NCBI RefSeq assembly: GCF_023923205.1
Contig: NZ_CP099490.1
Coordinates: 682,001-746,000, forward strand
From: Ornithinimicrobium cryptoxanthini
GTDB lineage: Bacteria > Actinomycetota > Actinomycetes > Actinomycetales > Dermatophilaceae
Length of the DNA: 64,000 nt
Reading direction: 5' to 3'
Under the pieces are notes generated by a model, which was not told where the DNA came from, ran no database searches, and was given only the letters and a program-made list of their open reading frames with translations. The position numbers and the translations under genes are program-made. Position 1 is the first letter of the stretch. Each line of letters starts with the position of its first letter. This document shows positions 17,173 through 26,231 of this stretch, one piece after another.

Positions 17173-17532
17173 ATGATGACCGACTACCTCGTGGTGCTGG
17201 CGGTGACCATGACCGGGATCCTCCTGGTCGTGGCCGCAGCGGGTGCCCGCCGGGTGATGGCCCCTCACGACCCCCAGCCTCGCAAGCTGACGACCTATGA
17301 GTCGGGCGTCGACCCGATCGGTTCGGGCTGGAGCCAGGGTGCGGTGCGCTACTTCGTCTATGCCCTGCTCTATGTCGTCTTCGCCGTCGACGTCGTCTAT
17401 CTCTTCCCCTGGGCCCTGGTGCTGCGCACCGACCTCGGGCCCGTCTCCCTGGTGGAGATGGGCATCTTCCTCGGGGTCCTGCTGGTCGGCCTGGGCCACG
17501 TCTGGCGCCGCGGACTGCTGAGGTGGGTGTGA
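17173..17532 (+). CDS. nuoA: Complex I subunit A, second cluster (NuoA)
   Basis: Three-helix membrane subunit of 119 residues near the quinone chamber. Diagnostic are KLTTYESGVDPIGSG and RYFVYALLYVVFAVDVVYLFP. First gene of a second complex I operon. Two ATGs (17173, 17176) are possible; the position of the -10 box favours the first. It overlaps nuoB by one base. Confidence 0.95.
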   Translation: MMTDYLVVLAVTMTGILLVVAAAGARRVMAPHDPQPRKLTTYESGVDPIGSGWSQGAVRYFVYALLYVVFAVDVVYLFPWALVLRTDLGPVSLVEMGIFLGVLLVGLGHVWRRGLLRWV

Positions 17533-18155
17533 TGACCGTCGACCTGCCGACCCCACGCGTCGGGCGTGCTGCCGAGGCCGCCCCGGATGCTGTCCGGGTG
17601 GTCCTCAACTGGGGCCGCAAATACTCCCTGTGGGTCTTCAACTTCGGCCTGGCCTGCTGCGCCATCGAGTTCATCGCCGCCTCGATGGCCCGGCACGACT
17701 TCATCCGCCTCGGCGTGATCCCGTTCGCCCCCGGCCCGCGCCAGTCCGACCTGATGGTCGTCTCCGGCACGGTCACCGACAAGATGGCCCCGGCGATCCG
17801 GCGGCTCTATGACCAGATGCCCGAGCCCAAGTACGTCATCTCCTACGGCGCCTGCTCCAACTCCGGCGGGCCCTACTGGGACTCCTACTCCGTCACCAAG
17901 GGCGTCGACCAGATCATCCCCGTCGACGTCTATGTGCCCGGCTGCCCGCCCCGGCCGGAGGCGCTGCTCCACGGAATCCTCACCCTGCAGCAGCAGATCG
18001 CCGCCGAGACACCCGGGCGGGCCCGGGCCGGCTCCAGGCCGCGTCCGTATGCCGATCAGCCACCGTCCGCAGGCGAGGTCACCCGGGGTCTGCTTACTCC
18101 GCCGAGTGGTGCCACGACGCCACCGGACTCAGCCGATGGCGGTGACCGGTCATGA
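17532..18155 (+). CDS. nuoB: Complex I subunit B, second cluster (NuoB)
   Basis: Peripheral-arm subunit that holds cluster N2, the electron donor to quinone. All four cluster cysteines are present: the tandem pair at 42-43 (GLACCAIE), Cys108 (YGACSNSGG) and Cys138 (VPGCPPRP). The protein has 207 residues; the last 55 or so form a polar tail beyond the core. The ATG sits in a TGATG overlap with nuoA. Intact cysteines argue that this cluster was under selection as a redox complex despite missing nuoD. Confidence 0.95.
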   Translation: MTVDLPTPRVGRAAEAAPDAVRVVLNWGRKYSLWVFNFGLACCAIEFIAASMARHDFIRLGVIPFAPGPRQSDLMVVSGTVTDKMAPAIRRLYDQMPEPKYVISYGACSNSGGPYWDSYSVTKGVDQIIPVDVYVPGCPPRPEALLHGILTLQQQIAAETPGRARAGSRPRPYADQPPSAGEVTRGLLTPPSGATTPPDSADGGDRS

Positions 18156-24744: not shown

Positions 24745-26231
24745 CCTTCGAGCTCAACGTCTCGGCCCTCTGGCCGGTGCTGGCTCCGGCCCTGGCGGCC
24801 GTCGTCGTGCTCGTCCTCGACGTCGCCTGGCCCAGGGCGCGCAGCGCCCACCTGTGGGTGGCAGCCGCCGGCCTGGCCGGAGGTGCTGTCGGCACCATCC
24901 CAGCCATCCTGCAGTCATCTGCCGACTCCACCGGCGCGTTCTGCCTGCCCTCCGGGCCCTGCCTGTATGCCGCGAGCTCGCTGACCGGTGGCCTGCAGCT
25001 GCTCGCTCTGGGCAGTGCCGCCGTCGTGCTGGTGCTCACCTGGGGTGAGTGGGGTCGGGCCGGTCGTGGTGGCCCGACCGTGGCGCCGACCGTCGTGCTG
25101 GTCGCGCTGTTCCTCGCCGCCACTGCCGGGGTGGCTGCCGTGCCCGCGGCCCGGGACCTCGGCACCCTGCTGGTCGGCCTGGAGCTGGCCACCCTGCCGG
25201 TCGTCGGCCTGGTCGCGCTGGAGCGCCGCGCGCAGCGGCACGCCGAAGCCATCGCCGGCGCGGTCGCCCTGCTGACGACCTCACTGGTCTCGTTCGCGCT
25301 CCTTGCGCTGGGCGCCGCCCTGTGGGTGGCGGCCACCGGCACGGCCCTGCTGTCGCCCGAGGCCGCAGCCACGGCGGCCGCCGTGCCCGAGCGGTCGGCC
25401 CTCCTGCTCCTGTCGGCCGTCTTCGTGCTGGCCGGCCTCGGCTTCAAACTCTCGGCCGTGCCGTTCCACGCCTGGACGCCACTGACCTACTCGACCGCGC
25501 CGCTGCCGGTCACCACCTTCCTGGCCGGCACCTCCAAGGTCGCCGCGCTCGGCGGCATGATCGTGCTGGTGCAGGCCCTCGCCGGCAGCTCCGGCTTCGC
25601 GCTGGTCGCCGTGGCCGTGATCGCTGCCGTCACGATGACGCTCGGCAACGCCATGGCGCTGCGGCAGGACGACCTGGTGCACCTGCTCGCCTGGTCGGCC
25701 GTCGCCCAGGCCGGCTGGCTGATGCTGCCCCTGGCCTCGCTGTCGTCGCGGGCGGTGCACGCCGCCGGCGGCTACCTGGCCGTCTATGTGGTGGCCACCG
25801 TCCTGGCGTTCGTGGTGGTGATCACCGTGGCGCACCGTCCCGGGGGCGGGGCGGCGATCGAGGACCACCGGTCGCTGGCGCGTCGCCAGCCCCTGAGCGC
25901 GGCCGCGCTCGGGTTCGCGCTGCTGACCCTGGCGGGCCTGCCCCCGGCGATCATCGGCCTGGTGGCCAAGGTCGTGGTGCTGCGGCCCGTCGCGGCCGAC
26001 GGCACCTGGTGGTTGCTGGTCGTGGCCACGCTCAACATCGCCCTCGGCATCGCGGTCTATGTCCGTTGGCTCGCGGCCCTGATCGAGCGTGAGTCGCCCG
26101 AGGAGCTGGTGGCCGCTGACGTCGCGCCCGAGCCCCCGGCATACGCCATGCCCTGGACCCACCGCGTGCTGATCGGGGTCCTGACCACGCTCCTCCTGCT
26201 CGGCAGCATCGCGCCGGTGGGCATCTTCTAA
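24741..26231 (+). CDS. nuoN: Complex I subunit N, second cluster (NuoN)
   Basis: Third antiporter-like subunit, 496 residues, recognised by PFHAWTPLTYSTAPLPVTTFLAG cut short as PFHAWTPLTYSTAPLPVTTF and by DLVHLLAWSAVAQAGWLMLP. GTGA overlap with nuoM. It is the last nuo gene of the cluster, and htpX follows 37 bases later. Confidence 0.94.
   Translation: MTFELNVSALWPVLAPALAAVVVLVLDVAWPRARSAHLWVAAAGLAGGAVGTIPAILQSSADSTGAFCLPSGPCLYAASSLTGGLQLLALGSAAVVLVLTWGEWGRAGRGGPTVAPTVVLVALFLAATAGVAAVPAARDLGTLLVGLELATLPVVGLVALERRAQRHAEAIAGAVALLTTSLVSFALLALGAALWVAATGTALLSPEAAATAAAVPERSALLLLSAVFVLAGLGFKLSAVPFHAWTPLTYSTAPLPVTTFLAGTSKVAALGGMIVLVQALAGSSGFALVAVAVIAAVTMTLGNAMALRQDDLVHLLAWSAVAQAGWLMLPLASLSSRAVHAAGGYLAVYVVATVLAFVVVITVAHRPGGGAAIEDHRSLARRQPLSAAALGFALLTLAGLPPAIIGLVAKVVVLRPVAADGTWWLLVVATLNIALGIAVYVRWLAALIERESPEELVAADVAPEPPAYAMPWTHRVLIGVLTTLLLLGSIAPVGIF

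Follow-up and report, generated by a model that had tools for sequence, protein, structure and literature searches.

A second complex I gene cluster of Ornithinimicrobium cryptoxanthini without an NADH module and with nuoD at a distant chromosomal site

Complex I-like enzymes composed of 11 subunits and devoid of NuoEFG have been described for Desulfitobacterium (in passages of PMC11238625), and Campylobacter is likewise cited among them in PMC3765725. As in the gene set reported here, no NADH module is in use in these enzymes; ferredoxin or flavodoxin has been proposed as their electron donor. A still closer counterpart exists in Streptomyces, which possesses, besides a complete nuo1 operon, a second set of genes (nuoA2, B2, D2, H2-N2) lacking E, F and G. 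The excerpts of PMC3765725 and PMC8388888 report a dispersed nuoD2 apart from nuo2, and that of PMC8622039 a partial nuoABCHIJKLMN operon. Therefore, the separate position of nuoD2 in Streptomyces is known already, as is the Arg/Thr switch between NuoB and NuoD described in a section of PMC8042128.

The nuo2 cluster and its distant nuoD gene

The window, i.e. the whole stretch of 64,000 nucleotides analyzed, starts within nuoH of a complete nuo1 operon (A-N) located a short distance upstream of nuo2. The nuo1 part inside the window, from within nuoH to nuoN, covers positions 1-8052; nuoA-G and the start of nuoH precede the window. The nuo2 cluster (17173-26231, forward strand) encodes NuoA, B, C, H, I, J, K, L, M and N in this order, as determined by Pfam. 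Its genes are nuoA2 (17173..17532; PF00507), nuoB2 (17523..18155, starting at 17523 or 17535; PF01058), nuoC2 (18152..18688; PF00329 and alignment), nuoH2 (18834..19799; PF00146), nuoI2 (19796..20350; Fer4), nuoJ2 (20347..20853; PF00499), nuoK2 (20844..21146; PF00420), nuoL2 (21143..23164; PF00361/PF00662), nuoM2 (23161..24744; PF00361) and nuoN2 (24741..26231; PF00361). All ten reading frames are intact, and Pfam revealed no NuoD, NuoE, NuoF or NuoG within 17173-26231. NuoB2 contains four of the four N2 cysteines and NuoI2 both CxxCxxCxxxC motifs for the 4Fe-4S clusters N6a/N6b. Thus, the gene content, the order, the full set of cluster cysteines and the spacing of 145 bases between nuoC and nuoH given in the original prediction were all confirmed.

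These 145 bases between the nuoC2 stop (18688) and the nuoH2 start (18834) are made up of two direct copies of a 71-bp repeat (18682..18827). The copies form a perfect tandem at the very position that nuoD2 occupies in deep-branching relatives. Dispersed in the genome, the repeat occurs at four more places, one of which is the end of nuoD1 (C1:676834-676903). As a separate observation, the C terminus of NuoC2 in the class bears an RRR..PPGVP tail (here 18560-18688 of the window), which was not seen in the six clusters read in which nuoD2 is in place (L199-L204), nor in L195 and L196. The nuoC2 genes of two further clusters (L186 and L189) carry long Pro/Ala-rich C-terminal extensions.

According to the original prediction, the complex cannot work as usual unless NuoD is borrowed from the first operon, another NuoD-like protein takes part or the function has changed; a second nuoD elsewhere in the genome was named as an outcome speaking against it. 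Exactly such a gene is present. A PF00346 search of the 3.77-Mb single-contig genome detected two genes for NuoD: one is nuoD1 of the nuo1 operon, the other a stand-alone nuoD2 (C1:424116-425285, reverse strand), which is intact and encodes 389 aa. It sits beyond the ftsH, folE, folP, folB/folK, DUF3180 and DUF222 genes, 276 kb away from nuoH2 on the same chromosome. NuoD2 is 34% identical to NuoD1, and one of eight NCBIfam NuoD models (NF004739) matches it above its own cut-off. With this protein, all eleven core subunits (NuoA-D, H-N) are encoded, ten in the window and NuoD2 elsewhere.

Distribution and relocation of nuoD2

The occurrence of the genes was determined in a class sample of 118 genomes with a completeness of 90% or more, applying a threshold of E<=1e-80 for D2 and nuoH2. 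D2 was detected in 55 and nuoH2 in 34 of these genomes. All 34 genomes with nuoH2 also contained D2, while none of the 63 genomes without D2 possessed nuoH2 (Fisher p 1.8e-15, uncorrected for shared ancestry). The two genes were never seen side by side in the 34 genomes; in seven they reside on the same contig at a distance of 183-288 kb, and in 27 on different contigs, which by itself proves little. Similarly, no NuoB was seen near D2 when 80 named records were inspected with flanks of up to 10 kb; some of these records end at a contig edge. The occurrence of C2 parallels that of D2, as C2 was found in 55/55 D2 genomes versus 1/63 others; 53 of these calls were made at 120 bits or more and two (G083 and G155, 88-90 bits) by the place beside nuoB2. 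The single exception (G061, 93% complete) contains B2, C2 and I2, and D2 was not found there.

What happened to nuoD2 can be seen in ten deep-branching actinobacterial clusters (L199-L204 and L293-L296, the last one cut within I2), in which the order is A2-B2-C2-D2-H2-I2 onward. Since nuoD2 lies between nuoC2 and nuoH2 in these clusters, the gene was moved and not lost. Relocation is also indicated by D2 genes located off the cluster in family f11 (three clusters: L195, L196 and L297) and in two f10 genomes out of three. In one of these two (L290 of G021), nuoC2 and nuoD2 have moved together off nuo2, with a Methyltransf_28 gene divergently oriented beside them; the rows L026 (G006) and L030 (G021) belong to genomes with nuoD2 apart from nuoH2. 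Perhaps more than one event was involved; the NuoD tree, from which L033 and L052 were left out and for which the class orphans were thinned randomly, does not separate one relocation from two for the class and f11. The nuoC2-nuoH2 gap is an old gene relocation as already noted for Streptomyces. Hence, of the two options originally proposed, a recent loss of nuoD or a real variant, the former is contradicted by nuoD2 elsewhere on the chromosome, and the latter holds because the D-less operon recurs in the class and a dispersed nuoD2 has been published for Streptomyces.

A second nuoH orthologue was not found in 21 D2 genomes of the class, including Motilibacter sp. K478 (G110). In all of them nuoB2, C2 and D2 remain, and two or more nuoB matches were obtained per genome. 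For 20 of the 21 genomes (not G111), the nuoB2 neighbourhood was fetched. In 17 of these reduced clusters nuoI2 follows directly after nuoC2. Another one (L145 of G082, one contig) contains an H2 remnant between nuoC2 and nuoI2 and also an A2 remnant, and no J2-N2 genes were detected over the 7 kb that follow nuoI2. The remaining two (L146 of G115 and L147 of G071) end at a contig edge, leaving the nuoI2 position unread. Altogether, 18 of the 20 clusters (L145, L148-L164) consist of nuoB2-C2-I2 with an orphan D2 and show no second membrane arm. The remnant in G082 is part of a 165-aa frame with three nuoH2 pieces (L145:8939-9300, approximately), which may be a shrunken gene or encode a mini-protein.

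The N2 cluster, the quinone site and the methyltransferase gene

Close to N2 there is an Arg residue, which is contributed either by the NuoD homologue (HRGxE), in combination with a Thr in the NuoB homologue, or, in T. thermophilus, the other way round (a section of PMC8042128). NuoB2 possesses Thr at the position of T. thermophilus Nqo6-Arg83, and the switch position is Arg61 in NuoD2 and Thr in NuoD1. The same pattern was obtained with the homologues. Outside nuo1, all 71 NuoB rows (five of them from Tyr-type clusters) have Thr, and the nuo1 NuoB rows have Arg in 15/15 cases; in both counts the own gene is included twice, and L100 and L101, which are cut before the CC motif, were omitted. 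Among 85 NuoD rows, 72 showed Trp at the quinone position together with Arg at the switch, nine showed Tyr and Arg (other, Tyr-type clusters) and four, all NuoD1, Tyr and Thr. Given Thr in NuoB2, Arg in NuoD2, Thr in NuoD1 and Arg in NuoB1, NuoB2 fits NuoD2 but not NuoD1.

The quinone site itself is unusual. Trp84 of NuoD2 aligns with Tyr87 of T. thermophilus Nqo4, a residue called strictly conserved in an excerpt of PMC8119997, so that the usual quinone-binding Tyr is not kept. It likewise occupies the position of Y. lipolytica Tyr144, and its spacing to Arg61 is 23, equal to that between R121 and Y144 of this organism (positions from a section of PMC8042128). Trp was present at the quinone Tyr position in 72 rows of the clade as well as in 120/120 listed homologues and 80/80 named records, the latter two sets not being independent because they were gathered by similarity to NuoD2. 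Y. lipolytica mutants affected in the quinone Tyr show very low activity with decylubiquinone. Owing to Trp at the Tyr87 position, quinone reduction at the NuoD2 site is not assured, but it may still take place there. The quinone-site His is kept (His35 of HPATHG).

In the reduced lineages, the cluster ligands persist, as the four cysteines of B2 are kept in the rows read and the eight cysteines of I2 in 18/18. The 18 reduced D2 rows, for which three of full type (L165, L168 and L178) were set aside, all retain Trp and HRxxEK, and the His of HPxTHG is present in 17/18, its Thr in 1/18. The ELGAxTP motif is mostly lost (Gly 6/18, Thr 2/18, Pro 11/18). Over 91 columns conserved in H2-bearing rows, the mean retention in these rows is 0.84.

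One base upstream of nuoD2 ends a gene for a MidA/NDUFAF7-like methyltransferase (Methyltransf_28; C1:425287-426342, reverse strand). Its product scored 50.1 bits against PF02636 (cut-off 23.3) and also matched DUF185/COG1565 structures; there was no match in NCBIfam. We take human NDUFAF7 to be a member of PF02636/COG1565. A methyltransferase profile (A2) matched 55/118 class genomes and 53/55 D2 genomes, two of which (G074 and G168) were counted by fragments. D2 without the methyltransferase was encountered in G155 and G165, the reverse in G114 and, weakly, in G121. Both genes are no more than 10 kb apart in 76/80 named records, and three of the four misses end at a contig edge. In the phylum sample, the methyltransferase was found in 23/60 genomes, namely in 17/25 Trp-type genomes, in G022 (fragmentary D2), in G002, G018, G029 and G033 (Tyr-type HRG NuoD) and weakly in G042. 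Eight of the 25 Trp-type phylum genomes gave no match to this profile, whose source rows came from the class and f11, so that distant sequences may escape it. In six of the 17 Trp-type phylum genomes having both genes, the methyltransferase and D2 reside on different contigs; in two deep-branching clusters (L203 and L204) it directly follows nuoN2.

According to excerpts of PMC3829151 and PMC3750175, human NDUFAF7 methylates the corresponding Arg of NDUFS2. The arrangement here is alike insofar as a PF02636 gene lies beside the gene of a NuoD2 bearing the target Arg in HRG. The similarity of the neighbour to NDUFAF7/MidA is remote, though, and methylation in the actinobacteria is predicted here from the genes. 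The Methyltransf_28 protein may thus methylate Arg61 of NuoD2, and the modification to be expected is a symmetric dimethyl-Arg61 on NuoD2 and not on NuoD1, which has no Arg there.

Possible function and comparison with known systems

A candidate for the electron supply is encoded 2.9 kb from nuo2. On the reverse strand, a korA-like gene (12366..14291; TIGR03710 above cut-off, POR_N, POR) for the alpha subunit of a 2-oxoacid:acceptor oxidoreductase and a korB-like gene (11287..12369; PF02775) for the thiamine-diphosphate subunit of the same enzyme were identified, the latter scoring below the cut-offs of the NCBIfam beta-subunit models. Judging from its family, the enzyme (11287-14291) might oxidize 2-oxoglutarate, although other 2-oxoacids are compatible with the family match, and might pass the electrons to ferredoxin. 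Homologues lie beside nuoB2 in 12 of the 20 reduced clusters; the flanking regions retrieved for the deep-branching clusters and for L187 and L188 contained no KOR-like genes. A role of the korA/korB-like enzyme in the nuo2 system is conceivable.

Very probably, nuo2 and NuoD2 form a complex I of 11 subunits (A2-D2, H2-N2) that lacks the NADH module, NuoD2 being supplied in trans from a relocated gene, and the complex is probably fed by ferredoxin. Long before the species arose, the gene moved out of the nuoC2-nuoH2 gap; it is now found downstream of the folate genes, next to the MidA/NDUFAF7-type methyltransferase gene. Ferredoxin, which could be reduced by the KOR-like enzyme encoded nearby, would probably deliver the electrons to NuoI2, from where they would pass via N6a and N6b to N2 in NuoB2. 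Menaquinone might then be reduced at the B2/D2 site with Trp in place of the usual Tyr, and proton pumping by H2-N2 would be coupled to this reaction. 

An acceptor other than quinone deserves attention, because every clade row that was read has Trp instead of the quinone Tyr, and because ELGAxTP is mostly lost in the lineages lacking a second nuoH, while their 4Fe-4S motifs, HRxxEK and Trp persist. A derivative that no longer reduces quinone but serves another acceptor at the N2/Trp84 site is nevertheless rather unlikely in O. cryptoxanthini, where the membrane arm (A2, H2, J2-N2) is intact and the His of HPATHG has been retained. More tentatively, and with a probability that we would put clearly below even, the Trp-type NuoB2-C2-D2-I2 quartet, together with a MidA-type methyltransferase of its own and in many cases a 2-oxoacid:ferredoxin oxidoreductase, may be a separate redox module, which in several actinobacterial lineages (Motilibacter included) persists in the absence of any second membrane arm and acts as a ferredoxin-dependent enzyme, either soluble or docking, that has given up the classical quinone site.

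Three other readings were rejected, since nuoD2 was found elsewhere, the layout is common to the relatives, and B2 and D2 match. Borrowing of NuoD1 from the complete nuo1 operon would be favoured by its gene lying on the same chromosome, ~23 kb from nuoC2, but nuo2 has its own nuoD2, with which it co-occurs, and in a pair of B2 (Thr) and D1 (Thr) neither subunit would contribute the Arg needed near cluster N2; this reading is therefore highly improbable, and a dependence on NuoD1, one of the options raised originally, does not hold. There is hardly any chance that nuo2, having lost nuoD, is now in decay. The shrunken nuoH2 of G082 and the J2-N2 genes not found there would speak for it, yet in O. 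cryptoxanthini the ten nuo2 genes and D2 are intact, and nuoH2 has been kept in 34 of the 118 class genomes. Finally, the perfect tandem repeat exactly at the nuoC2/nuoH2 junction made it reasonable to suspect, as was done at the outset, that nuoD had collapsed there during assembly. But in 34/34 class genomes D2 and H2 are either on separate contigs or 183 kb or more apart, and the 71-bp repeat occurs dispersed in the genome. With the same layout in the relatives, an assembly error is extremely unlikely.

The apparent paradox of a complex I without NuoD is thereby removed, and a natural clade of complex I has been exposed in which the quinone-binding Tyr is Trp. Two features call for an explanation: the N2/quinone site of the Trp type, perhaps in methylated form, and the persistence of this site where a second membrane arm is missing. 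The B2-C2-D2 lineages lacking a second nuoH, 18 of whose 20 clusters include I2, offer a way to probe the N2 site without the quinone tunnel. No report of the Trp in NuoD2, of the methyltransferase link or of the reduced quartet was found among the matches listed from the open-licence literature. The Streptomyces nuo2 accounts, in the portions of PMC3765725, PMC8388888 and PMC8622039 at hand, share the separate nuoD2 with our locus but make no mention of Trp, of the Arg/Thr match between B and D, of a methyltransferase neighbour or of reduced lineages. From the enzymes of Desulfitobacterium and Campylobacter, by contrast, nuo2 is set apart by a nuoD located off the operon and by Trp at the position of the quinone Tyr.
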